From Asticcacaulis sp. (GTDB taxonomy: Bacteria; Pseudomonadota; Alphaproteobacteria; Caulobacterales; Caulobacteraceae), in assembly GCF_020217185.1 (NCBI RefSeq), contig NZ_JAIWNX010000222.1, positions 1-10,000 of the forward strand: 10,000 nt of DNA, read 5' to 3'. A program made the translations under genes and the position numbers. The notes beneath the pieces are model-generated. The model made no database searches. It had not been told where the DNA came from and was given only the letters and a program-made list of their open reading frames with translations. Positions 1-10,000 of the stretch are shown one piece after another; the stretch's first letter is position 1; every line of letters starts with the position of its first letter.

Positions 1-1
1 G

Positions 2-460
2 ACGCCGATCCGTTTGAACAGACCCGATACGCTGGCCCCGCCGGTTGAGGACAGCCTTCCGCTTGTGGCGACGCCGACGGACCTGCCCGAAGTGACAGGC
101 CCCATACCGGTTATCACCGGTCAGCCTGGCCCGGTGGCTGACCCCGGGCCGGTCCATGCGGTTGGTCCGACCTACGTCAAGGCGGTGTGGTCGCGCTTCC
201 CCGACTCAGCGGTCCTGATGGAATATTACCCCGCCCGCGCTATGGACGCCGAGGTTGAAGGGGCGGCAACGCTGGCCTGTACGGTGCGTGACACCAAGGG
301 TCGCGTGAAGTGCGAGGTGCTGTCGGAAGACCCCCGAGGCTATGGCTTTGGTGATGCCGCGGTGCGCGCGGTGGAGGCCAAGGGCCGCGCCGACACATCG
401 AACGGTGCGGTCGAGGTCGGAGCGACCATGCGCGTCAAGATGGGCTTTGCCCTCCAGTAG
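2..460 (+). CDS. TonB C-terminal-domain protein (energy transducer TonB-like), 5' end missing
   Basis: The reading frame is open from the first bases of the window, with no ribosome binding site before the only early start-like codon (TTG at 14), so the true start lies upstream. The visible part opens with a proline-rich stretch (residues ~5-50), as in the periplasmic linker of TonB proteins. It ends with a TonB-C-like domain: a Y-x-P-x-x-A-x-D-A segment, then G-x-A-T-x-A-C, G-R-V-K-C and a S-E-D-P-x-G-Y-G-F-G-D-A-A block. Two cysteines about a dozen residues apart are shared with the gene at 1402-1956, so the two are paralogues. By family, such proteins transmit proton-motive-force energy to outer-membrane receptors, but many short ones have no known partner and no ExbB/ExbD is seen here. 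The membrane anchor would be in the missing N-terminus. A terminator follows 25 bp after the stop. Confidence 0.75.
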   Translation, partial: TPIRLNRPDTLAPPVEDSLPLVATPTDLPEVTGPIPVITGQPGPVADPGPVHAVGPTYVKAVWSRFPDSAVLMEYYPARAMDAEVEGAATLACTVRDTKGRVKCEVLSEDPRGYGFGDAAVRAVEAKGRADTSNGAVEVGATMRVKMGFALQ

Positions 461-485
461 GCGCACTGCCTCCCGATTGTGATAG

Positions 486-512
486 GGCCTCCGGACATCC
501 GGAGGCCTTTTT
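486..512 (+). terminator. Intrinsic terminator after the TonB-like gene
   Basis: A perfect 9-bp GC-rich stem (GGCCTCCGG at 486-494, CCGGAGGCC at 499-507) with a 4-nt ACAT loop is followed at once by five T residues (508-512). It lies 25 bp beyond the stop of the upstream gene and 90 bp before the M48 protease start, so it should separate the two transcription units. Confidence 0.92.
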
Positions 513-602
513 ACGTCCGGCTTATAGCCAAGGGCGCAGCCTTTATTGACCGAGCGCCGCGCAGACGCCATTATGTTTCAGGAAAAATCCGAGGGAGTCC
601 CC

Positions 603-1379
603 ATGCCTGCGCGCCTGAAAACCATTGTGAGCCCCAAAACCCTGACGATCGCGGCCCTGATTGCGGCCGCGGGGGCTCTGGTGGCCTGCGAAACCAACGA
701 CACCCTCGGCCGCAGTCAGTTCCTTCTGGTTGACAATGCCGATCTGGAGCCGTCGGCCCTGCAAGGGTGGCAGGAACTGATGCGGACCTCGAAAGTCTCG
801 ACCGACGCCGCGTTGAACCGCCGGGTCAAGACCGTCGGTGCCAAGATCGTCGCGGCTGCCGGCTATAATCCCAATCAGTGGGAATATGTGCTGTTTCAGG
901 ATGATCAGCCCAACGCCTTCGTCATTCCGGGCAACAAGGTCGGCGTGAATACCGGCCTGTTCAAGGTGGTGAAGAATGATGACCAGTTGGCGGCGGTTCT
1001 GGGCCACGAAACGGCGCACGTCCTGGGCAAGCACGCGGCTGAGCGCTATTCGCAGCAGGTCGGCACGCAGATCGCGCTTCAGACGGCCGCCGGGGCCACG
1101 TCGGGCCGCACCCAGCAGGTGATTGCCAATTACGGAGGCATGGGCGCGCAACTGGGGCTGCTGCTGCCCTATTCGCGCAAGCATGAACTGGAGGCTGACC
1201 GGATCGGCGTCGATATCATGGTCAAGGCGGGGTATAAGGCCTCGGAGTCCATCGCCCTCTGGCGCAATATGCAGGCCCTGAATCAGGGTAAGCCGCCGGA
1301 ATTCCTTTCGACCCACCCGTCAGACAATACGCGCATCGCGCAATTGGAAAGCTATATCCAGTCAAAGGGCTATAAATAG
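603..1379 (+). CDS. M48-family zinc metalloprotease, lipoprotein
   Basis: A 258-residue protein, predicted to be a periplasmic, lipid-anchored metallopeptidase of the M48 family (LoiP/YcaL-like), a group linked to outer-membrane protein quality control. Residues 1-28 form a signal peptide ending in a lipobox (L-V-A-C), with Cys29 as the lipidation site. The zinc site is H-E-T-A-H at 135-139, and the third ligand is in H-E-L-E-A-D (Glu195 of E-x-x-x-D, 195-199). A S-T-H-P-S-D segment near the C-terminus is also typical of the family. I chose ATG 603 because GAGGGAG (591-597) sits just upstream and the signal peptide starts there; an in-frame upstream start at 546 would add 19 residues that do not fit. 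The TonB-like gene follows after 22 bp, probably in the same transcript. The exact substrate cannot be told from sequence. Confidence 0.9.
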   Translation: MPARLKTIVSPKTLTIAALIAAAGALVACETNDTLGRSQFLLVDNADLEPSALQGWQELMRTSKVSTDAALNRRVKTVGAKIVAAAGYNPNQWEYVLFQDDQPNAFVIPGNKVGVNTGLFKVVKNDDQLAAVLGHETAHVLGKHAAERYSQQVGTQIALQTAAGATSGRTQQVIANYGGMGAQLGLLLPYSRKHELEADRIGVDIMVKAGYKASESIALWRNMQALNQGKPPEFLSTHPSDNTRIAQLESYIQSKGYK

Positions 1380-1401
1380 CACTATATAAGGGGGCGGGGC
1401 T

Positions 1402-1956
1402 ATGATCGTTGAGGACGAGCGGGAGGCGGCTGCGCGCCGCCTGAAAAGACTCGTGGTGTGGCTTATCGTGGCCTTGCTGCTGTTTGTGGGGGCCGGCTTG
1501 CTGGCAGAGCACACTAAGCCACTTCCCACTCTGTCCCAAGTCTCAGACAGTATTGAGGCCTTCCTTTCGGAGGAGGTCACGCGCCAGACGCGCCACGAAC
1601 CCCGTCCTTATGATGTTCCCGCCGTAGAGGCATCGCCACCCGTTCCCGTAGACATTGACTCGAACACGATTAACGCAAGGTGGGACCTCGGCGATGATGT
1701 GGACCTCGCCGATTACATGCCCGATAAGGCCATAGATGCCAATGCAAAGGGTGAAAGCACGGTTGCGTGCCGCTGGGATGCTGGCGGGCGCGTGACAGGG
1801 TGTACGATCATCTCTGAGAGCCCGCAGGGATTTGGCTTTGGACAAGCAACGCTGCGTCTGATGCGTGACCACGGGCGGGTTGCCGCACGAAATCCGGATG
1901 AGACCTTTACGGCCGGCGAGGGATTGAAGATCCGCTTTCGCTGGGTGGTGGACTGA
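1402..1956 (+). CDS. TonB C-terminal-domain protein with N-terminal membrane anchor
   Basis: A 184-residue protein with an acidic/basic cytoplasmic start (residues 1-16), one transmembrane helix (~17-36, rich in V, L and A), a linker and a TonB-C-like domain (~100-184). The domain repeats the pattern of the gene at 2-460: Y-M-P-x-K-A-I-D-A, G-x-S-T-V-A-C, G-R-V-T-G-C and S-E-S-P-Q-G-F-G-F-G. The two cysteines are conserved and could form a disulfide in the periplasm. AAGGGGG (1388-1394) lies 7 nt before the ATG and supports the start. The protein is shorter than classical TonB and lacks a long Pro-Glu/Pro-Lys spacer, so it may not reach an outer-membrane receptor in the usual way. Its spacing suggests co-transcription with the M48 protease. 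Its role as a true energy transducer is an inference from the domain. Confidence 0.8.
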   Translation: MIVEDEREAAARRLKRLVVWLIVALLLFVGAGLLAEHTKPLPTLSQVSDSIEAFLSEEVTRQTRHEPRPYDVPAVEASPPVPVDIDSNTINARWDLGDDVDLADYMPDKAIDANAKGESTVACRWDAGGRVTGCTIISESPQGFGFGQATLRLMRDHGRVAARNPDETFTAGEGLKIRFRWVVD

Positions 1957-2010
1957 ATGTTACGGAGCCGCTTTTTCACCGCTTATTGCGTCGGCGGGTG
2001 AAATTACCCC

Positions 2011-2039
2011 TTGATCGGCGGGCCGTCGCGGTTTAGAGG
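2011..2039 (+). promoter_or_regulatory. Possible housekeeping promoter for tRNA-His
   Basis: TTGATC at 2011-2016 resembles a -35 box, and TAGAGG at 2034-2039 (within GTTTAGAGG) could be a weak -10 with a 17-bp spacer. Transcription would start near 2046, just before the CACGATGGT repeat that pairs with the tRNA trailer. The match is modest. The upstream stretch 1957-2010 shows no other clear signal. Confidence 0.3.
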
Positions 2040-2048
2040 ATCGGCCCT

Positions 2049-2140
2049 CACGATGGTCTGCCGTCTTAGCTCACTTGGTAGAGCGCCAGATTGTGGCTCT
2101 GGAGGTAGCTGGTTCGAAACCAGCAGACGGTACCATCGTG
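2049..2140 (+). repeat. Inverted repeat flanking tRNA-His (leader/trailer extension of the acceptor stem)
   Basis: CACGATGGT (2049-2057) is the exact reverse complement of ACCATCGTG (2132-2140). The two arms lie directly outside the tRNA acceptor stem, with a two-base bulge (CT, 2058-2059) on the 5' side. In the precursor RNA they would stack on the 7-bp acceptor stem and pair the discriminator A and the CCA end with the 5' leader. The rest of the spacer to the next gene (2141-2258) holds nothing I can identify. Confidence 0.6.
2060..2135 (+). tRNA. tRNA-His (anticodon GTG), alphaproteobacterial type without G-1
   Basis: A complete 76-nt cloverleaf. The acceptor stem is 2060-2066 with 2125-2131, and the D stem is GCTC/GAGC (2069-2072, 2081-2084). 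The anticodon stem CCAGA/TCTGG (2086-2090, 2098-2102) encloses loop TTGTGGC with anticodon GTG at 2093-2095. The variable loop is 5 nt, and the T stem GCTGG/CCAGC encloses TTCGAAA. The CCA end is encoded (2133-2135). The first acceptor pair is G1-U72, the discriminator is A73, and the base at -1 is T. Most bacterial tRNA-His genes carry an extra G-1 opposite C73. Loss of G-1 with A73 and U72 is the published state in Caulobacter crescentus and related alphaproteobacteria, read by a divergent HisRS. This supports the taxonomic placement. Confidence 0.97.
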
Positions 2141-2271
2141 ATAAAAGCTCCCCCGACAAGTCCATGGCATAGCCAAACCAGTCGTCCACGGACGGATTGA
2201 CGCAAGGGTCGCGTGCGCTCTGGTCCTGCGGGCAAATCCGGTTATAAGGCAAGCCTGAAAAGGATATGCCT

Positions 2272-3354
2272 ATGTCTTCGTCTTTCAGCCTTATCGTTAT
2301 CGGTGGCGGCATTACCGGCCTCAGCCTTGCCCTGCGCGCGCTGGATTACGGTCTGGCGGTGACCCTTATTGCCAGGGACGCGGTCGAAGACACCACCTCG
2401 GCCCTGTCGGCGGGCATGATTGCCCCGGCGATGGAGGCCCTGACTGAAGCGCAGCCAGAGTTGTCCTATGCCCGCTACGTCGCTGCGCAAAAGCATTGGC
2501 CCGTCTTCGCCGCCGATCTGGGTTTGTCTGAAATCCTTGAAATGGCGCAGCCTGCTGTTTGGGTATGGTCAGGTGAGGCGGGGCCGTCGCCTGACGACAT
2601 GATGGCGCGCTTTACGGCGTTGGGGGCCAAGGGGCAGGTGATGGCCGAAGAGGACCTCGCCAAACTGGGGTTCCATGCGCCTTTGCACGGCATCGAGATT
2701 GTCGGTGAATGGCTGATGGCGGCTGCGCCGGTGCTGGCCTTTATGAAAACACAGTTCGAGGCGCGCGGCGGGCGCTGGGTCGAGGGCGAGGTCACGCAGG
2801 TGGCCGCCCACAGCGTCGAGCTATCCGACGGATCGGTGCATCAGGCCGGGCATGTGGCCGTCTGCGCTGGCTATGGGGCGGCATCCTTTGTGGACTCTGT
2901 GCCGTCATTGAAGGCCCTGACGCCTATCAAGGGCCATCTGCTCGATCGCGACGGGCGCAGCGACCCCGCTCTGGCCGGGCGGATGGTGCGCTCGCCCTGG
3001 GGCTACTGGGTGTTTCTCGACGGCCTGACCAAGTTTGGCGCCACCATGCAGGCCGGTAAGGCCGATGAGGGTGTGGAGCCGGGGGTCATCGACTCGCTGA
3101 AAGATAAGGCGGGTAAGTTCACGCCGTCGTCCGTTGCGCCGCTTCAGGACGTCACGCCGCGCGTTGGCGTGCGGGCGGCGACACCCGATCACTGGCCACT
3201 GATCGGCCGCGACGTCAGCGGCGTCTATGTGGCCGCCGGAATGCGGCGCAATGGCTGGATATATGGTCCCTATGCCGCCACCGTGTTAACGGCCCTGATG
3301 ACGGGGCAGGAACCGCCGGCAGGGGCGGAGGCCTACGCCCCACAGCGGTTTTGA
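2272..3354 (+). CDS. FAD-dependent amine/amino-acid oxidoreductase (glycine oxidase ThiO-like, DAO family)
   Basis: A 360-residue flavoprotein of the D-amino-acid-oxidase superfamily. The N-terminus is a Rossmann dinucleotide-binding motif (V-I-G-G-G-I-T-G, residues 9-16), followed by a helix and an acidic end of strand 2. S-A-L-S-A-G-M-I-A-P (~43-52) matches the second FAD contact of ThiO/DadA enzymes. The C-terminal part has V-G-V-R-A-A-T-P-D-x-W-P-L-I-G (Arg301) and G-M-R-R-N-G-W (Arg325/Arg326), where this family places carboxylate-binding and FAD-contacting residues. By family it would oxidise glycine or another small amino acid to an imine with H2O2. ThiO feeds thiazole synthesis, but no other thi gene is in view, so the substrate stays open. 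AAAAGGA (2258-2264) is only 1 nt from ATG 2266 but 7 nt from ATG 2272, hence the start chosen. No signal peptide is seen; it is probably cytoplasmic. Confidence 0.82.
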   Translation: MSSSFSLIVIGGGITGLSLALRALDYGLAVTLIARDAVEDTTSALSAGMIAPAMEALTEAQPELSYARYVAAQKHWPVFAADLGLSEILEMAQPAVWVWSGEAGPSPDDMMARFTALGAKGQVMAEEDLAKLGFHAPLHGIEIVGEWLMAAAPVLAFMKTQFEARGGRWVEGEVTQVAAHSVELSDGSVHQAGHVAVCAGYGAASFVDSVPSLKALTPIKGHLLDRDGRSDPALAGRMVRSPWGYWVFLDGLTKFGATMQAGKADEGVEPGVIDSLKDKAGKFTPSSVAPLQDVTPRVGVRAATPDHWPLIGRDVSGVYVAAGMRRNGWIYGPYAATVLTALMTGQEPPAGAEAYAPQRF

Positions 3355-3364
3355 TTCACGCCTC

Positions 3365-3406
3365 GTTAACCTCTATCGGGCAAAATTTGCCCATTCTTTG
3401 GTTAAC
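3365..3406. promoter_or_regulatory. Nested palindromes in the 63-bp spacer before the transglycosylase gene
   Basis: GTTAAC occurs at 3365-3370 and 3401-3406, and exactly midway between them lies the near-perfect palindrome GGGCAAAATTTGCCC (3378-3392). The arms share one centre (about 3385), with 7-bp and 8-bp spacers that are not themselves complementary. The symmetric arrangement 12 bp before an ATG without Shine-Dalgarno sequence suggests an operator or promoter-proximal binding site. TTAAC-type words are also half-sites for the Caulobacter regulator CtrA, but the full TTAA-N7-TTAA spacing is not present. The central hairpin lacks a good T tract, so a terminator for the upstream gene is less likely. 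Confidence 0.4.
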
Positions 3407-3417
3407 GCGCGCCTTTC

Positions 3418-4278
3418 ATGTCCGGCCCTTCGTCTCCCGTACCCGACTCTTCCGGCCTGTCGCCGCGAAAGCAGAGTGTGGTCTCCGCTATCACGCGGGC
3501 GGCCCAGCGGACGGGTGTCGATTTCAGCTATCTGCTGAAAACCGCTCAGCGCGAAAGCTCCTTAAACCCCAATGCCAAGGCCCCGACCTCATCGGCGGCA
3601 GGTCTGTTTCAATTTATCGAACAGACCTGGCTGGCAACCGTCAAAAAGCACGGTGGCAAGCACGGCTATGGCGGCTATGCCGACGCCATCCGTCAGGGGG
3701 GCAACGGGCAATACTATGTGGCCGATTCGCAAGCGCGTCAGCAGGTGCTGGGCCTGCGCTACAATCAGGACGCAGCGGCGGCCATGGCGGCGGAGATGAC
3801 GGCGGGCAATGCCGCCTATCTGAAAGGCCGCACGGGCCGCAACCCCACGGCGGGCGAGCTTTATGCGGCGCATTTTCTGGGGCCGGCGGGTGCGGCCAAT
3901 CTGATTGAAGCGGTGGAGCGGCGGCCGGGTGCTGCGGCGGCCAGTCTGTTTCCGGCGGCGGCCAATGCCAATCGTTCGATCTTCTACCGCAATGGCGCGC
4001 CGGTCAGCGCCGCCCAGTTGATGGCCAATCTCAATTCCAAGGCGGGTGGGGCCGTGCAGATGAACCTGCCCGATGTGCCCGACAGCGACACGCCGATGGA
4101 AGCCAATGGCAATGGTTACTTGCTGGCGCGTCTGCAACGCGTGCAGTCGGACGCTCAGTTGCTCAATATCGCCTTTGGCAACGGCACCGGGGATCAGAGC
4201 CTGTTGTTCGCCACGCAACTTTTGTCGGCCTTCGGTCCGGAAAAGGACAAGAGCGAAGAGGGCGGCGGCTTCGTCTAA
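3418..4278 (+). CDS. Lytic transglycosylase (SLT domain) without visible signal peptide
   Basis: A 286-residue protein with an SLT-type lytic transglycosylase domain at ~20-165. The catalytic glutamate is Glu46 in Q-R-E-S-S-L-N-P, followed by the conserved A-G-L-F-Q-F (61-66) and, further on, Y-A-A-H-F-L-G-P-A-G-A. Such enzymes cleave the MurNAc-GlcNAc bond of peptidoglycan with 1,6-anhydro product formation. The ~120-residue C-terminal part is low-complexity at first and then helical (L-L-A-R-L-Q-R-V-Q-S), and I do not recognise it. There is no hydrophobic N-terminal signal: the protein begins S/P-rich and polar. An in-frame stop at 3403 rules out an upstream start, and no Shine-Dalgarno sequence precedes ATG 3418, so translation may be leaderless. 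Export could be through a flagellar or other dedicated machine; that is inference. The stop codon overlaps that of the convergent kinase-like gene. Confidence 0.85.
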   Translation: MSGPSSPVPDSSGLSPRKQSVVSAITRAAQRTGVDFSYLLKTAQRESSLNPNAKAPTSSAAGLFQFIEQTWLATVKKHGGKHGYGGYADAIRQGGNGQYYVADSQARQQVLGLRYNQDAAAAMAAEMTAGNAAYLKGRTGRNPTAGELYAAHFLGPAGAANLIEAVERRPGAAAASLFPAAANANRSIFYRNGAPVSAAQLMANLNSKAGGAVQMNLPDVPDSDTPMEANGNGYLLARLQRVQSDAQLLNIAFGNGTGDQSLLFATQLLSAFGPEKDKSEEGGGFV

Positions 4279-6059
4279 CCCACCGTCAAAGCGCGACGGA
4301 GGGCGTCTTCCGATTGCGGCATAAGCAGCGGGCGCACGCCCATTTCACTCAGCGGTTCCGCCTGCTGACCATCAGGCAACAGCGCCAGTATGGTCAGAGC
4401 TTCGCGCGCCTGTGTCGCCCTGAGACGTTCCAGCCATTCGGCCACCTTCTGGCGGTTGGCCGCATTGTCCAGATCCTCGAAGGCACCCGTGGCGATCAGC
4501 ACGGCGTCGATATCCCCCTTGGCGGCCAGAGACACGGCGCGCGGCCGCGTGGTGGCCGTCAGGCAGCGATGCCCCAGTCCTTCCAGCGTGTCGCGCAGTT
4601 CTACCGAACGCAGAGAGTCGTTGGATACCAGCATGACCTTAAGGCCGCTTACGGACTCCTGTGCAGGCGCTTCCGGCTTGGCCACCGGACGGGGGGCGAT
4701 GGCATCCGGGTCGTAGGGCAGGTCCAGCCAGAATTTGGAGCCTACATCCGGTGTGCTCTGGGCTCCGATCTCGCCATGCATCAGTTCGGCCAGACGACGC
4801 GACAGGTTGAGCCCCAGTCCCGCACCGGAATAGCCGGCTGAGGTACGTGCAATGCGCTCATGCGGCAGGAAGGCGCGGTGTAGTTCCTCCGGTTCCAGCC
4901 CCGGCCCGGAGTCCATGACCTTGAGCCGTAAAACGCCTTCGTCAGGCGGCAAAAGTCTGACCTCAACCTTGCCCTTGGGCGTGTACTGGATGGCATTGGC
5001 CAGCAGGTGGGACAGGATCTGTTCCACGCGCGAAGCGTCCCCAATCGCGGCTCCTGTTTCGGGCAGGGGGGGCAGGCTCAGGGTCAGATCCAGGCCCTTG
5101 GCAGTGGCCATGTCCTGAAAGCCGCTGGTGACGTCACGCATCAGACTTTCGATATCCAGCGGGCGCAGGTCGAGCACCATCTGACCGGAGCGTGCCTCAC
5201 CTTCGTCGAGCGTGGTGGTGATCAGCCCCAGCAAATGGTCGATTTCGCTGCGCGCACTTTCGACATAGTGGCGCGGAGCCGGGGCACGGCTGAGGTGCGA
5301 GAGGCCCTGATCCAGTGTCTGTTCCACGCTGCGCAGGCCGGTGGCGATTTCACGTGACAGGGTTTGCATCAGGGCCATCTGATCGCGGGTCAGGTTATCG
5401 CGGGCGGTAAGGGCGGCTTCGCGCTCCTGAAGCGTACGCACCTGCGCAAAGGCGAGTTGATAATGTTCCCGAAGATGACGATTCATAATCAGGCCCAGAG
5501 CCAGCGCCATGGCCAGCCCGCCGGTAACGAGGTTTGTCCATGTGCCGTCAGGTTGGGTGAGGTTAAGCGCCAGTATAGGTCCGGCCATGGCCAGCGGGGC
5601 CAGGGTCAGCAAAAACAGCAGGACCGGTGCGCTGAAAAAGATAATCCCGACGGCCGCGCCGGCGCAGATGGTGGCAAAGACCTGCGCCGCCGGACCGCCG
5701 CCTACGCTACTCAGGGACGCCACCAGCAGGCTCAGGGCCCATAGAGCGCCACACAACCATTGCCGCCGCAGCCTGACGTCCAGACTGCGGCGTGTCGGGA
5801 CGGCGTCGGTTTTCAAAGAGGGCTTAAGGAAGAAGAAGGCCGTCCAGATGCAGACGAACAAGACCATGTTCAGCGCGATTTGCAGCGGCGACATGAAGTA
5901 GCTGGCACCCCAGATATAGACCGGCAGGCCGATGGCAAAAAAGCCAAGCGCATAGGGCAGCAGGCGCACCTGCGCCTTCAGACCGTAATCAAGCGCGATC
6001 TGTTCTTGCGTGGGCACGACCTCGGCGTCGGCAGTTAAGGGGGGCGTGGACTCTGACAT
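4275..6059 (-). CDS. Membrane hybrid histidine-kinase-like protein lacking phosphoacceptor residues (pseudo-kinase)
   Basis: A 594-residue inner-membrane protein. Six transmembrane helices (about 33-50, 59-78, 101-117, 125-143, 145-165, 176-193) form the sensor part, followed by a charged coiled coil (~200-230). A DHp-like region (231-285) reads L-S-R-E-I-A-T-G-L where kinases have S-H-E-I-R-T-P-L, so the phosphoacceptor His is Arg236. The HATPase domain looks intact: N box with Asn355, D-S-G-P-G at 383-387, G-A-G-L-G-L at 412-417. The C-terminal domain (~472-594) has the receiver fold pattern, but the acidic pair is S-N (479-480), the phosphoacceptor Asp is Ala523 and the conserved Lys is Met580. 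It likely binds ATP but cannot phosphorylate itself in the usual way. The start at 6059 drops an upstream extension that only mirrors the divergent gene; GGGGA lies unusually close to it. The function is unknown, and DivL is a conceptual parallel. Confidence 0.85.
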   Translation of the reverse strand: MSESTPPLTADAEVVPTQEQIALDYGLKAQVRLLPYALGFFAIGLPVYIWGASYFMSPLQIALNMVLFVCIWTAFFFLKPSLKTDAVPTRRSLDVRLRRQWLCGALWALSLLVASLSSVGGGPAAQVFATICAGAAVGIIFFSAPVLLFLLTLAPLAMAGPILALNLTQPDGTWTNLVTGGLAMALALGLIMNRHLREHYQLAFAQVRTLQEREAALTARDNLTRDQMALMQTLSREIATGLRSVEQTLDQGLSHLSRAPAPRHYVESARSEIDHLLGLITTTLDEGEARSGQMVLDLRPLDIESLMRDVTSGFQDMATAKGLDLTLSLPPLPETGAAIGDASRVEQILSHLLANAIQYTPKGKVEVRLLPPDEGVLRLKVMDSGPGLEPEELHRAFLPHERIARTSAGYSGAGLGLNLSRRLAELMHGEIGAQSTPDVGSKFWLDLPYDPDAIAPRPVAKPEAPAQESVSGLKVMLVSNDSLRSVELRDTLEGLGHRCLTATTRPRAVSLAAKGDIDAVLIATGAFEDLDNAANRQKVAEWLERLRATQAREALTILALLPDGQQAEPLSEMGVRPLLMPQSEDALRRALTVG

Positions 6060-6190
6060 GTCCCCATAATGGCGCAAACAGATTGCGGTCCCGTTACCAG
6101 AGCCGGAAAAATTAACTTTTGACCGGAGATCAGGCCTCAACGTAGGCTTTGGTAAGGATTCGTTAAGAGGCGGGGCGGACAATCCAGGAA

Positions 6191-6216
6191 CGTACCGTCT
6201 CGACTCGTCCGGTACG
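6191..6216. promoter_or_regulatory. Dyad with internal GANTC site upstream of the DUF2336 gene
   Basis: CGTACCG (6191-6197) and CGGTACG (6210-6216) form a perfect 7-bp inverted repeat around a 12-nt centre that holds GACTC (6202-6206), a GANTC site of the kind methylated by CcrM in Caulobacterales. It sits 21 bp before the DUF2336 start, inside the 178-bp divergent spacer (6060-6237) that must carry both promoters. A second GANTC is at 6157-6161 and a third just inside the kinase-like gene (6049-6053). A possible -35 (TTGACC, 6119-6124) has no convincing -10 partner, so I do not call a promoter. Confidence 0.35.
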
Positions 6217-6237
6217 AGATGATCAGGACCTCCTCCC

Positions 6238-7389
6238 ATGACCGCTTCGCGTAGCCTGCTTTCCGAAACGGACGTCGCCCGTCTGGTCAGAAGTGACAAT
6301 GCCGATGATCGCGCTGTCGCCACCCATAAGGTGTGCCGCCTGATGGAACGCAGCGAACTGAGCGAAGTCGAGCGCGCCGCCGCGCAAGAAATCATCCGTC
6401 TGCTGGCTGATGACGCAGCCGAACTGGTGCGCAAGTCGCTGGCGGTCACCTTGCGCACCTCCAGCCTGCTGCCGCACGATGTCGCCTTGCGCCTGTCGCG
6501 CGACGTGCAGGCGGTCGCCGTGCCGGTGCTGAGCTATTCGCCGGTGTTTACCGACGAAGATCTGGCCGACATCATCCGCTCCGGCGGGCCTGTGCGTCAG
6601 ATGGCCGTGGCACGCCGCGAAACCCTGTCGGAAACCGTGACAACGGCCCTGGCCGAACACGGCGTCGAAGAGGCGGTCGTGATTGCCTGCGCCAATAATC
6701 AGGCCGTGTTCAGCAGCGCCGGCATGGATGCGGTGCTGGAACGCTTTGGCGAGTCCGAAATTGTACAGAACACGTTGATCAATCGTCAGCACCTGCCGGT
6801 CTCGGTGACCGAAAAGCTGATCCATATGGTCAGCCAGTCGCTGAAAGAACAACTGGTGTCACGTCACGCCATCCAGCCGGAAACGGCGGTGCAGATCACC
6901 GAGGCGACGCAGGAGCGCGCCACGCTGGACGTCGCCGATCAGACAGGGGCCAGCCGTGATCCGGCGGCTCTGGCGCGCCACCTTGTCATCGCCGGACGCA
7001 TGACGCCGTCCCTGATGCTGCGGGCGCTGGCCCGCGGGCATATGGCCTTCTTTGAACACGCTCTGGCGGAATTATCGGGCGTACCGCACGATCGCTGCTG
7101 GCTCATGGTGCATGATGCCGGGGCTTTGGGGCTGCGCGCCATCTATGACCGGGCGGGCCTGCCGGCGCGCATGTTCCAGACCTTCCGCATTGCGGTTGAC
7201 ACCTATCATTCGCTGGCCAGCGAAAATGCCGATCCTGACGTGCTGCGCTTTCAGGCGCGCATGATCGAACGCTTTTTGACTCAGGTGCCGTTCGCCCCAC
7301 GCGAGGACCTGATCTACCTCTATGAGCGTCTGGACCGCGATGCGCGTGGTCGCCGCCGGGGTGGCAAATCAACCCTTCAGGCGGCCTGA
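6238..7389 (+). CDS. DUF2336 domain protein, helical-repeat type
   Basis: A 383-residue, entirely soluble, alpha-helical protein matching the DUF2336 family of alphaproteobacteria, whose biochemical role is not established. Leu/Ala/Val-rich helices recur about every 35-40 residues in a HEAT-like way: after each helix pair come turns such as L-S-x-x-V, G-M-x-x-V and L-P-x-x-V before the next helix (~60-230). The second half (~240-360) is also helical and contains a L-A-R-G-H-M-A-F-F-E-H-A-L-A segment. There is no signal peptide, membrane helix or catalytic motif, so a cytoplasmic scaffold or protein-interaction role is the best inference. AGGA at 6225-6228 is 9 nt before ATG 6238. The gene is divergent from the pseudo-kinase gene, which hints at shared control or a shared pathway. 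The tail is basic (R-G-R-R-R-G-G-K). Confidence 0.85.
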   Translation: MTASRSLLSETDVARLVRSDNADDRAVATHKVCRLMERSELSEVERAAAQEIIRLLADDAAELVRKSLAVTLRTSSLLPHDVALRLSRDVQAVAVPVLSYSPVFTDEDLADIIRSGGPVRQMAVARRETLSETVTTALAEHGVEEAVVIACANNQAVFSSAGMDAVLERFGESEIVQNTLINRQHLPVSVTEKLIHMVSQSLKEQLVSRHAIQPETAVQITEATQERATLDVADQTGASRDPAALARHLVIAGRMTPSLMLRALARGHMAFFEHALAELSGVPHDRCWLMVHDAGALGLRAIYDRAGLPARMFQTFRIAVDTYHSLASENADPDVLRFQARMIERFLTQVPFAPREDLIYLYERLDRDARGRRRGGKSTLQAA

Positions 7390-7419
7390 GGAACGCCAAA
7401 AGAAAAAGCCCGGTCGCGA

Positions 7420-7464
7420 GCGATATGTCGAAAAGTGTGAGCGGTTTTTCGGCAAAAATATCGC
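7420..7464 (+). other. Two-part hairpin downstream of the DUF2336 gene
   Basis: GCGATAT (7420-7426) pairs with ATATCGC (7458-7464). Inside it, GTCGAAAA (7427-7434) pairs with TTTTCGGC (7446-7453) using one G-U pair, leaving an A-rich bulge on the 3' side and an 11-nt loop. No T tract follows, so alone it is not a classical terminator. It may protect the 3' end of the message. Confidence 0.4.
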
Positions 7465-7478
7465 GACAAAACAAAAAT

Positions 7479-7521
7479 TTAGAGCGGGATGACGCTTCGA
7501 TTTGAAATCATCTCGCTCTAA
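7479..7521 (-). terminator. Intrinsic terminator of the mla-like operon / dispersed-type palindrome
   Basis: A 14-bp stem with one G-U pair (7479-7492 with 7508-7521, outer sequence TTAGAGCG / CGCTCTAA) closes a 15-nt loop. Read on the minus strand it comes shortly after the lipoprotein stop and is followed by a T-rich run (AATTTTTGTTTT, complement of 7467-7478), as expected for an intrinsic terminator. The GAGCGGGATGA...TCATCTCGCTC form also resembles short intergenic palindromes scattered in alphaproteobacterial genomes; that likeness is from memory. Confidence 0.75.
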
Positions 7522-7537
7522 TGAACGGGCTTTTCTG

Positions 7538-8242
7538 TTACTGGGTCGGCGCTGTTGCCGGTGGCGGAGGCGTCGTGGCCTCTTTGGCTTTGGCCTCGCT
7601 GACCGCCGTTTCCGTGAAAGCAATCACCTCCACCGTCACGCGCGAGGCGGCGCTCTCAAACCCTTCGATCATCGGCCCCAGACTGCCCTTGCGCACAGCG
7701 ATCTCTGAGGAGATGAACTTCTCTGCCATCACCTGGCGGTCTTTTAACCGTACCAGACGCGCATCCAATGCCACGATAACCGTTGGCCGGCGCTTGGCAT
7801 AGGCCGCCTCAAAGCGACGTACATTGATGTCGAGCCGGTATTCGCCAGACACACGGCCCTGATCACCAAGGCGAACCTCAGGGCTGGCCTGCCGCGCAAA
7901 GCCTTCGGACATCAGGTCACGGAACTGCCCCTGCGCCGTGCTGGCCCAGCGGCCGCCGGAGACGTAGGACACCTCATTGCCTTCGGTCGTCACGATGCGG
8001 TCCCCCGCGGCGGCGCGCGGAAAGCCGTCGAAATTGACGAAGACATCGACCGGCTTGGTATCGGGCGAAGCGGGCGGGGCCTTGACCTCGCCTTTTTCCA
8101 GCAGGGCCGGGTTGAAACGGATGCTGTAGAGCTGCACCGGCTTCACTTCGGGCAGCAGGGTAATGCAGCCGCTGAGGCCGGTGGCCAGACCGGCGGTCAG
8201 CAGACCGAGGCTCAAAGAGCGACGTGTGGCGCGCGTCATCAT
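7538..8242 (-). CDS. ABC-type transport auxiliary lipoprotein (PqiC-like), Mla-type system
   Basis: A 234-residue lipoprotein. The signal peptide has a basic start (T-R-A-T-R-R), a hydrophobic core and lipobox L-S-G-C, giving Cys26 as the lipidated residue. The mature part begins I-T-L-L-P-E-x-K-P-V-Q-L-Y-S-I, a pattern of the auxiliary lipoproteins that accompany MCE transporters. It has the G-R-W and Y-R-L-D-I-N-V-R-R-F-E segments seen in that family. The C-terminus ends in a Pro/Thr/Ala-rich tail. It would sit in the outer membrane and receive or deliver phospholipids opposite the MlaD ring. Its ATG overlaps the mlaD stop (TAATG, 8240-8244), pointing to translational coupling, with AAAGG about 10 nt upstream inside mlaD. 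A second ATG follows at once, so the start could be one codon later. No MlaC-type carrier is seen, and this protein may take its place. Confidence 0.85.
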   Translation of the reverse strand: MMTRATRRSLSLGLLTAGLATGLSGCITLLPEVKPVQLYSIRFNPALLEKGEVKAPPASPDTKPVDVFVNFDGFPRAAAGDRIVTTEGNEVSYVSGGRWASTAQGQFRDLMSEGFARQASPEVRLGDQGRVSGEYRLDINVRRFEAAYAKRRPTVIVALDARLVRLKDRQVMAEKFISSEIAVRKGSLGPMIEGFESAASRVTVEVIAFTETAVSEAKAKEATTPPPPATAPTQ

Positions 8243-9204
8243 TACGGATTGACCTTTCTCTCTTTGGCCTTGGGCTTGCCGATCAGGCCCTGCGGGCTGG
8301 CGCGGACCTCTTCAACGAGGTCTTCGACGGAGCGGGTGGCCTGATTGAGGTTACGCAGGCTGTCCGACAGGGCGGGCAGGGTGGTCTCGGACACTTCGTT
8401 GATCGGCCCCTGTGCCGCCTTCGACAGGTTGGCGACTTCGGTGGCGGCATCGGCCAGCTTGGCCGCCGCGTCGTCGATGCGGTTCATGGTCTGCGGCACG
8501 CGATCCTTGACCAGCACATCGGCCGAATTGGCCAGTTTGGACAGGTTTTCAGCGGCGATGCCGGCCTGCACAATGGCCTCATGCGCGTCATCCAGCAGTT
8601 GCTTACGCTGTTTGAGGTCTTCGGTGACTTCCCCAATATCACTGGTGATGTCTTCGATATTTTTCATCGTCTTGGCAAAGGCGTTGAGGTTATCATCTGA
8701 CATCAGGCGATTGATACGGTTGAGCGACTCATAGGCGCTTTCGATCACGCCGCCTGACCCGGCCAGCAGCTTGTCCAGACGGCTTTCGGTGGCGCGAATA
8801 ACCGGGTTGCGGGCGCCGATACCGGGCTCACGCTTGAGCAGTGCCGCTTCCTTGGAGCCCGGAGAAATCTGGATGTAGTTGAGGCCGGTGACGCCCAGCG
8901 GCTCCAGCACGGCGGTGGAATCGACGCGCACGGGCGTGGAGGAATCGACGCGTACAGTGGCAATGACCTGAGCCGTATTGGCCTTGCCCAGCCGTAGCTC
9001 CTTGACCTCACCGACCTTGATGCCGTTGAAATGCACTTCGCCGCCCTCGGTCAGGCCGTTGACCGAAGAGTTGAACACGACGTCGTATTCCGAGTAGGTT
9101 TCGTTGAAACTGCCCTGAATCAGCCAGAAGGCAAAGACAAAGGCAGCCGCGGTGAGCACCAGGGTGATCAGTCCGACAACCGCGTAATGGGCCTGTCTTT
9201 CCAT
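8242..9204 (-). CDS. mlaD: MlaD-like MCE-domain protein of a phospholipid ABC transporter
   Basis: A 320-residue protein with one N-terminal transmembrane helix (~8-30) and a single MCE domain (~40-117) carrying the signature V-N-G-L-x-E-G-G-x-V-x-F-N-G-I-K-V-G-E-V, then G-V-T-G-L-N-Y-I-Q-I-S-P-G. In MlaD proteins this domain forms a hexameric ring that passes lipids between the inner-membrane permease and the periplasm. After it comes a ~170-residue helical, coiled-coil-prone region (repeated N-x-x-K, D-D-A-A-A-K-L-A-D-A-A and L-S-x-L patterns) that makes it much longer than the E. coli protein. That is usual for alphaproteobacterial members and could span part of the periplasm. A strong Shine-Dalgarno sequence (GAGGAGAG) precedes ATG 9204. 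It lies 71 bp after mlaF and overlaps the next gene by one base, so all three are probably one operon. Confidence 0.92.
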   Translation of the reverse strand: MERQAHYAVVGLITLVLTAAAFVFAFWLIQGSFNETYSEYDVVFNSSVNGLTEGGEVHFNGIKVGEVKELRLGKANTAQVIATVRVDSSTPVRVDSTAVLEPLGVTGLNYIQISPGSKEAALLKREPGIGARNPVIRATESRLDKLLAGSGGVIESAYESLNRINRLMSDDNLNAFAKTMKNIEDITSDIGEVTEDLKQRKQLLDDAHEAIVQAGIAAENLSKLANSADVLVKDRVPQTMNRIDDAAAKLADAATEVANLSKAAQGPINEVSETTLPALSDSLRNLNQATRSVEDLVEEVRASPQGLIGKPKAKERKVNP

Positions 9205-9275
9205 TTACTCTCCTCTCGTCACGGCGCGTTTGCCGCTCAGGGTCGTCGTGTAGGCGTGGACATCAACTCGGCAGG

Positions 9276-10000
9276 TCATGAGGCGTCTCCCGTCCCCCGG
9301 CTTTGCGAAGACCGGCCACGCGGGCCGTTGAAATACTCATGAATCCACGGGTGGTCCGATTGTTCCAGCACTTTCGGCGGGGCCTGTGCTACCACGCGCT
9401 TGTCGGCCAGCACCGCCACTTCATCGCAGATGGCGTACAGGCTGTCGAGATCGTGGGTGATCATGAAGACGGTCAGGTTCAGACTGTCCGACAGTTCGCG
9501 GATCAGCGCGTCGAACGCCGCCGCCCCGATGGGGTCGAGGCCAGCGGTCGGCTCATCGAGGAACAGAAGCTCCGGATCGAGCACCAGTGCACGCGCCAGT
9601 GCCGTGCGCTTGATCATGCCCCCCGACAGTTCCGAGGGCCGCTTGTCAGCGGCATCGAGCGGCAAGCCCGCCAGAGCCATCTTCATCAAGCCGATCTCGC
9701 GCATCTGTGCGGGTTTCAGCTTCGCGTATTCGGTCAGGGGCACGCAGACATTTTCGATGACGCTGAGCGCTGAAAACAGCGCCCCGCTCTGGAACAACAC
9801 GCCAAAGCGCGACTGCATCAGGCGCAACTGTTTCTCGTTAAGCCGGGTAATGTCCTTGCCGAACAGATGGATCGCGCCCTTGGACGGCTTTTGCAGCCCA
9901 AGGATCGAGTTGAGCAGCACCGTCTTACCGGTGCCGGAGCCGCCAACCACACCCATGACCTTGCCCCGTTCGACCGTCAGGTCGAGGTTGTCGTGCACGA
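9276..10000 (-). CDS. mlaF: MlaF-like ABC transporter ATP-binding protein, 5' end missing
   Basis: The last 240-odd codons of an ABC ATPase that runs off the window end; the first codon available as a start (GTG at 9998) falls inside the first beta strands, so the real start is beyond 10000. Counted from there, Walker A is G-G-S-G-T-G-K-T (19-26), the Q-loop Gln is 70, the signature is L-S-G-G-M (124-128), Walker B is L-L-F-L-D-E-P (144-150), then the D-loop A-G-L-D-P and an H-loop I-T-H-D. The L-S-G-G-M form with following basic residues and the V-V-G-G-S-G-T-G-K-T start are typical of MlaF. It would hydrolyse ATP on the cytoplasmic side of the permease MlaE, expected upstream. MlaD follows downstream. 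The C-terminal ~25 residues, after an H-E-Y-F-N-G-P-R-G-R motif, are polar. Confidence 0.92.
   Translation of the reverse strand, partial: VHDNLDLTVERGKVMGVVGGSGTGKTVLLNSILGLQKPSKGAIHLFGKDITRLNEKQLRLMQSRFGVLFQSGALFSALSVIENVCVPLTEYAKLKPAQMREIGLMKMALAGLPLDAADKRPSELSGGMIKRTALARALVLDPELLFLDEPTAGLDPIGAAAFDALIRELSDSLNLTVFMITHDLDSLYAICDEVAVLADKRVVAQAPPKVLEQSDHPWIHEYFNGPRGRSSQSRGTGDAS

Follow-up and report, generated by a model that had tools for sequence, protein, structure and literature searches.

A pseudo-histidine kinase gene of Asticcacaulis and the recurrent loss of the phosphoacceptor among its Caulobacteraceae orthologues

The 10,000-nucleotide stretch of Asticcacaulis sp. DNA analysed here (contig NZ_JAIWNX010000222.1, positions 1 to 10,000; hereafter the window) carries on its minus strand a gene for a membrane protein laid out as a hybrid histidine kinase (HK), with Arg at the position of the phosphoacceptor His and a receiver-like domain that lacks its phosphorylation residues. 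Pseudo-kinases of this fold are already known; what is new is the recurrent loss of the acceptor in one orthologous gene whose ATP site is strictly kept. A literature search that covered few subscription journals turned up no paper on this kinase family. The parts of the gene are given below, with DHp standing for the dimerization and histidine phosphotransfer domain, CA for the catalytic and ATP-binding domain and H+n for positions counted from the acceptor; papers are cited by PMC number.

4275..6059, minus strand: pseudo-hybrid histidine kinase gene, 594 codons and stop (open reading frame; orthologues in 173 Caulobacteraceae genomes)
5460..5960, minus strand: six-helix membrane part, about residues 34-200 (AlphaFold2 model)
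5352..5354, minus strand: Arg236 at the phosphoacceptor His position, codon CGT at 5354-5352 (HMMER and orthologue alignments)
5349..5351, minus strand: Glu237, H+1, present in all 47 His-less orthologues (residue role from PMC3510030)
5340..5342, minus strand: Thr240, H+4, the position of the phosphatase-type Thr/Asn (alignments; role from PMC3510030)
4710..5042, minus strand: HATPase_c (CA) domain, its N, G1 and G2 motifs all intact (Pfam PF02518, E 1.2e-23, above cut-off)
4278..4649, minus strand: pseudo-receiver domain with S479-N480, A523 and M580 at the active-site positions (orthologue alignment, model and Ka/Ks)

The reading frame, its coordinates and the residue numbers are as an earlier note on this DNA had them, and so is the substitution at its centre. 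LSREIATGL falls on the SHE box of 7z8n (GacS), 6qrj (ShkA), 7p8e and 6dk8 (RetS) in four HMMER alignments, and columns 236, 355, 383, 412, 479, 480, 523 and 580 all match in the alignment with a His-bearing orthologue; because the two kinds of alignment agree, the register of Arg236 is confirmed. The orthologue alignment also bears out that the receiver has lost its acidic pair (S479-N480, codons at 4625-4620), its Asp (A523, 4493-4491) and its Lys (M580, 4322-4320). The three ATP motifs, read in the earlier note as retained, are indeed in place (N355 at 4997-4995, D383-G387 at 4913-4899, G412-L417 at 4826-4809). One sign of loss had to be given up: Gly instead of Pro at H+5 occurs in 169 of 173 orthologues and means nothing here, since His-bearing orthologues have it too.

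The AlphaFold2 model (mean pLDDT, the predicted local distance difference test, 79.5) shows the six membrane helices that had been proposed. DHp helices at 173-256/263-291 come next, then a CA fold and lastly one resembling a receiver; the top Foldseek match is ShkA. In the receiver region (475-593) strands alternate with helices, with moderate fold confidence (pLDDT blocks of 60-79). At E values up to 1, Pfam searches of the protein returned no match to HisKA (PF00512), to Response_reg or to any PAS domain, membrane helices standing where PAS domains might have been; PF00512 is among the precomputed domains of most Caulobacter-type orthologues among the matches listed. Judged by its sequence, the protein would not pass as an active HisKA hybrid kinase, as it has no acceptor His, no PF00512 match and, in the receiver, neither the acidic pair nor the Asp and Lys. 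It does have what defines a pseudo-histidine kinase, namely an HK fold without the acceptor, encoded by an intact gene under purifying selection. The predicted receiver fold without phosphorylation residues is likewise that of a pseudo-receiver, and T240 supplies the Thr/Asn at H+4 that would be expected of a HisKA-type phosphatase.

In a first search all 61 genomes gave a match, with E below 1e-80 only in Asticcacaulis and in part of the other genera of its family; the 24 genomes from other families of the order reached at best E 9.5e-35, and we read these matches as paralogues. With a His-bearing orthologue as query, 213 of 390 family genomes matched at E up to 1e-55. We counted 173 of them as orthologues, one per Caulobacteraceae genome, and dropped 40 whose best E values, about 1e-55 to 1e-70, lie at a level taken for paralogues; three of these (G413 at 1.7e-70, G259 and G383 both at about 1e-64) could be divergent orthologues. 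Protein sets of the Asticcacaulis type, Caulobacter type and Phenylobacterium clade comprise the 120 listed of 480, 4366 and 2322 found, respectively. The first supplied 119 rows (without P0002, the window's own protein, and P0121; P0001 included), one of which is empty at the acceptor column. Counts of invariant columns exclude G292, whose contig ends within the receiver. A single-sequence contig scan, which returned only generic kinases besides the query's own contig, was not used.

Among the 173 orthologues the acceptor column holds His in 126, Asp in 24, Arg in 19 and Gln in 4, so that 47 proteins in five genus-level groups are His-less: 24 of 25 in Asticcacaulis, 17 of 56 in Phenylobacterium, 3 of 5 in group g31, both in g30, one of two in g32 and none of 70 in Caulobacter. 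Tyr is not found at this position in any of the 173. The homologue comparison called for in the earlier note thus shows that the loss is not confined to one strain, and the 24 Asticcacaulis genomes exclude a strain-specific mutation. All His-less codons except one (CGG, Arg) lie a single base from a His codon. Larger samples agree: among the matches listed, 118 Asticcacaulis-type proteins have R in 107, D in 5, H in 3 and V, S and G once each, the 120 proteins of the Phenylobacterium clade have D in 119 and N in one, and all 120 Caulobacter-type proteins have H. For HisKA domains in general, the His is missing from about 0.9% of those sampled (722 of 76,471; PMC12632262). The 47 of 173 found here exceed what chance at that rate would give, a contrast that is only rough because the orthologues are related and the family was chosen for its loss.

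A few Asticcacaulis-type proteins (P0016, P0041, P0042 and L012/L189 of genome G004) combine the His with an inactive receiver site. Since one of them, P0016, shares 68% identity with the window's protein and lies near the Arg clade, His may have been regained.

The near-uniform Asp of the listed Phenylobacterium-clade proteins, together with their intact ATP sites, would suit a protein that is still a kinase and takes up the phosphate on a non-standard acceptor such as Asp or Arg. We consider this very improbable: the same family has Arg and Gln forms, and no DHp column holds a His in more than 22 of the 47 His-less rows, which also excludes a different DHp His as the acceptor. The one well-kept His of the family, H497, sits in the pseudo-receiver; 46 of the 47 rows without the acceptor His have it, as does every row of a 46-row alignment that includes His-bearing proteins (His-types), and because these have it too it is not specific to acceptor loss.

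The ATP residues (N, D-G-G and G-G-G) are retained in all 173 orthologues, the 47 His-less ones among them, and in 120 of the 120 listed Phenylobacterium-clade proteins. Of the 43 columns without variation in the His rows, 28 remain so in the His-less rows, all 7 ATP-motif columns among them; a random draw gives this with p 0.037, a modest value. Glu at H+1 is found in 172 of 173 orthologues, the exception being an Asp in a His row; it is present in all 47 His-less orthologues and, among the matches listed, in 115 of 115 Asticcacaulis-type and 119 of 120 Phenylobacterium-clade proteins. Thr or Asn occupies H+4 in 38 of the 47 His-less orthologues, and the 115 listed Asticcacaulis-type proteins without His have T in 104, S in 10 and A in one, next to an H+3 position with at least 8 residue types among the 118 listed.

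Receiver and acceptor mostly go together, with 118 of 173 rows having both the His and the receiver Asp and 44 having neither. In part of Phenylobacterium the receiver loops are deleted, and a receiver Asp count of 40 of 120 in the alignment of that clade depends on gap placement and was not relied on.

Two trees that leave out the His column and the receiver, one from 173 rows and one from 60 chosen rows with a mixture model, both require at least 8 changes between His and non-His. A single ancestral loss is rejected: in approximately unbiased (AU) tests, whose groups were defined with the first tree already in view, one His-less clade has p-AU 3e-67 (60 rows), and one clade of the His-less rows outside Asticcacaulis alone has 4e-10. 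Holding the Asticcacaulis His-less rows together without G004 is not rejected (p-AU 0.40), and the losses in this genus may be a single event. That these are losses rather than gains we take from His being the general state of kinases; the change counts do not separate the two. The ancestral form probably had LSHEIRNGL and an intact receiver, as far as the sequences tell.

Selection was assessed by Ka/Ks in 26 pairs (16 His-less, 10 with His) picked by hand for closeness, leaving cells with pS, the proportion of synonymous differences, of 0.6 or more out of the pools. Pooled values for the His-less pairs are 0.066 in DHp, 0.124 in CA, 0.110 in the receiver and 0.171 in the membrane part, and for the His-types 0.015, 0.085, 0.103 and 0.122. 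DHp is therefore relaxed about fourfold, yet no other part is as tightly constrained; constraint on the pseudo-receiver is about that on an active receiver. These low values in every domain exclude a pseudogene and uphold the judgement that the gene is not decayed. With the substitute residue held and the ATP motifs invariant, they lead us to conclude that the protein is a selected pseudo-histidine kinase and not a product of decay.

A slower version of decay, in which the pathway has become dispensable and the active sites go first, deserves weighing because DHp runs at about four times the Ka/Ks of the His-types, and because single pairs are higher, above all Phenylobacterium G322/G367 (DHp 0.155, CA 0.366, receiver 0.246, membrane part 0.466). 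Many genomes of the family also lack the gene or have it in a form that was not recognised (213 of 390 match at E 1e-55, 173 of these being orthologues), some Phenylobacterium have lost the receiver loops mentioned above, and one listed orthologue, G401 (C7:35414-37111), contains an internal TAG. Against it stand the pooled range of 0.07-0.17 across all domains, the conservation of the substitute residue itself and ATP motifs without exception, and we hold relaxed constraint to be unlikely. A TAA within the longer G022 match of the 390-genome search is not seen in the 61-genome search.

The invariance of all 7 ATP-motif columns would also fit a kinase acting in trans: only the acceptor would be lost, and within a heterodimer the CA domain would go on to phosphorylate the partner's His. 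A DHp with its own Glu at H+1 should then relax, yet it is the most constrained domain, and no close His-bearing paralogue that might be the partner turned up in 61 genomes, where the best non-orthologue match has E 3.4e-37. We give this explanation little chance.

How the DHp surface has changed differs between the lineages. For residues that we take to be the docking helix, identity to the His-type consensus was computed beside that of the H-box: 0.81 and 0.98, respectively, in 16 Phenylobacterium Asp proteins, compared with 0.86 and 0.99 among 124 His-types. The values fall to 0.26 and 0.67 in 19 Asticcacaulis Arg rows and to 0.19 and 0.44 in the His-bearing G004. By this measure both elements are almost unchanged in the Phenylobacterium Asp clade and rewired in Asticcacaulis, G004 included.

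Several known proteins share the layout. In ShkA (6qrj), GacS (7z8n, the top phmmer match) and HmrA a kinase core is likewise followed by a receiver; unlike the window's protein, ShkA and GacS keep the His in the matched box. The RetS kinase region (6dk8) matches as an HK-like core at E 6.8e-19 and also keeps its His. RetS modulates another kinase. ShkA, too, has a pseudo-receiver, in its case a regulatory one (PMC12632262). HmrA has HAMP and periplasmic domains and needs both His and Asp, as H286A and D578A do not complement (PMC11481889). The same paper reports that the C. crescentus hybrid kinase CCNA_03265 (CC_3162) is missing the conserved His; by its description, that protein differs in having kept the receiver Asp and in a substitute His named H151, which would put its DHp near residue 150, not 236.

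DivL of Caulobacter (PDB 4q20), the best-studied pseudo-histidine kinase, carries one substitute, Tyr, in nearly all homologues (Ala in Magnetospirillum), has PAS domains, binds ATP weakly and senses DivK~P, and is reported to have neither kinase nor phosphatase activity (PMC4211667). In the family described here, Arg, Asp and Gln arose repeatedly, the N-terminal part is six membrane helices, there is a pseudo-receiver and the ATP motifs are invariant. The window's protein is not a DivL orthologue, having Arg for Tyr, no PAS domain and a separate SYELRTPL protein in the same genome. That protein, a Tyr-type DivL-like kinase (L292, an 863-aa frame on contig C274), is probably DivL itself, to go by its motif, and the genome therefore holds two different pseudo-histidine kinases. 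The survey of H-boxes in this genome read 30 of 44 HATPase matches by regular expression and found no H-box in several.

The earlier note had read the protein as selected for a signalling or allosteric role like that of DivL. Selection as a pseudo-kinase stands; the DivL-type role has become the main rival to the reading we prefer. A pure allosteric partner would heterodimerise or dock with another histidine kinase, as DivL does on CckA or the ChrS pseudokinase with HrrS, leaving regulator phosphate untouched. By itself this leaves unexplained that 114 of the 115 listed Asticcacaulis-type His-less proteins have T/S at H+4, next to a freely varying H+3, and that the docking helix of Phenylobacterium has hardly changed; moreover, no partner kinase gene lies beside the pseudo-kinase within the window. 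We think it rather doubtful, if clearly more probable than a heterodimeric kinase or slow decay.

We tentatively favour, at a little under an even chance, a kinase-dead, nucleotide-binding protein that engages a response regulator, with phosphatase action as the likeliest form. In HisKA kinases Glu at H+1 serves the kinase reaction and Thr/Asn at H+4 the phosphatase reaction (PMC3510030). The latter residue is needed for phosphatase activity, to which the His can contribute without being indispensable (PMC3510030, PMC12632262). These roles fit a phosphatase, or a pseudo-kinase engaging a phosphorylated regulator, in most lineages, the exceptions being lineages whose H+4 residue is G, A, H or D. 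The ancestor would have been an ordinary membrane hybrid histidine kinase of Caulobacteraceae in which phosphotransfer became dispensable. The His would then have been replaced in Asticcacaulis, the Phenylobacterium clade and several smaller groups, mostly with the receiver site eroding as well. The ATP pocket and the helix around the former His were kept, as was, outside Asticcacaulis, the docking helix for the response regulator. In the present protein the six-helix membrane part would take in a signal, and the CA domain would bind ATP or ADP and set the conformation of DHp. DHp would engage the phosphorylated response regulator, most likely using the Thr/Asn at H+4 to take off the phosphate; failing that, it may sense the phosphorylated regulator, as DivL senses DivK~P.

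A number of observations weigh against this preference. Nine of the 47 His-less orthologues have neither Thr nor Asn at H+4 (three S, two each of G and A, one H and one D), and the same holds for 12 of the 120 listed Phenylobacterium-clade proteins (six D, two each of H, G and S); phosphatase action therefore cannot apply to all. Glu at H+1 is conserved better than the Thr/Asn at H+4, and data on CrdS link that Glu to kinase, not phosphatase, activity (PMC3510030). PleC is reported to lose its phosphatase activity when its His is removed (PMC3510030), and frequencies in HisKA and HisKA_3 have been used to argue against phosphatase as a general pseudo-kinase function (PMC12632262). SYELRTPL, in the genome's own DivL-like protein, still has Glu and Thr in the corresponding positions, and Caulobacter DivL has neither activity, as noted above. 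The rewired docking helix of Asticcacaulis means that the partner may differ there. Loss of the His and loss of the receiver are not significantly associated in an independent-pairs test; 3 His-less rows retain the receiver Asp, and 7 His rows are without it (8 with the truncated G292).

At least 8 acceptor changes, an ATP pocket never lost in the orthologues read and the fixation of its own substitute in each larger lineage would also mean, on another account, that nucleotide-gated switching of DHp, not phosphotransfer, was selected already in the His-bearing ancestor. The acceptor would then be a dispensable extra, and the Caulobacter form bifunctional with mainly non-kinase output. We rate this as possible, with the odds against it.

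With a conserved neighbour, and with His, Arg, Asp and Gln forms side by side in bacteria that are related and in part culturable, this one gene is a natural experiment on the role left to a sensor kinase after phosphotransfer is lost and on whether ATP binding alone can signal. It is also a caution that proteins automatically annotated 'histidine kinase' may be without the defining reaction.

The conserved neighbour and the gene on the other side are:

6060..6237, no strand: divergent intergenic region of 178 bp between the pseudo-kinase and DUF2336 genes (open reading frame coordinates)
6238..7389, plus strand: DUF2336 gene, divergent neighbour (Pfam PF10098, E 1.3e-74)
3418-4278, plus strand: transglycosylase SLT gene, convergent, with a 4-base overlap with the pseudo-kinase gene at the stops

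No match to a sigma-70-type promoter was found in 5900-6400. The DUF2336 gene adjoins the kinase gene divergently in all 62 loci read with flanks, and the pair is thus conserved. DUF2336 is broader than the kinase, being found in 357 of 390 genomes at E 1e-30 and in 172 of the 173 kinase-bearing genomes (the exception is G318), so that a link between the two is only suggestive. In group g24, 14 of 16 genomes have neither a kinase match (E 1e-55) nor a DUF2336 match (E 1e-30) and the other two have both, which hints that the pair was lost together. The DUF2336 protein is modelled as all-helical; a fold search gave no PDB match at E 0.001 or better, with only weak armadillo-type matches, and no paper on 'DUF2336' was found in the literature searched.

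Presumably CC_2324 of C. crescentus is a hybrid kinase, and the CC numbers used here for ftsZ and rpoD are likewise our assumption. Map positions relative to these two genes, taken from two Caulobacter genomes that disagree with each other, do not support our first guess at the C. crescentus orthologue, CC_2874 (a MrrA kinase, PMC5964349). CC_2324 is the more likely orthologue, short of proof, because CC_2323 has 377 aa (PMC1182365), the length of the DUF2336 neighbour in locus L244. No mention of CC2324 was found in the literature searched.

The SLT gene lies on the other side of the pseudo-kinase in 48 of the 62 loci, some of which have short flanks. Farther out in the window, two small TonB_C-like proteins, at 14-460 (below the Pfam cut-off) and 1402-1956, flank an M48 peptidase gene at 546-1379. 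An Mla-like transport cluster at 7538-9998 on the minus strand comprises an ATP-binding cassette (ABC) ATPase, an MlaD protein and an auxiliary lipoprotein, and a similar cluster is found beside the kinase gene in four Caulobacter loci (L172, L173, L244 and L255).

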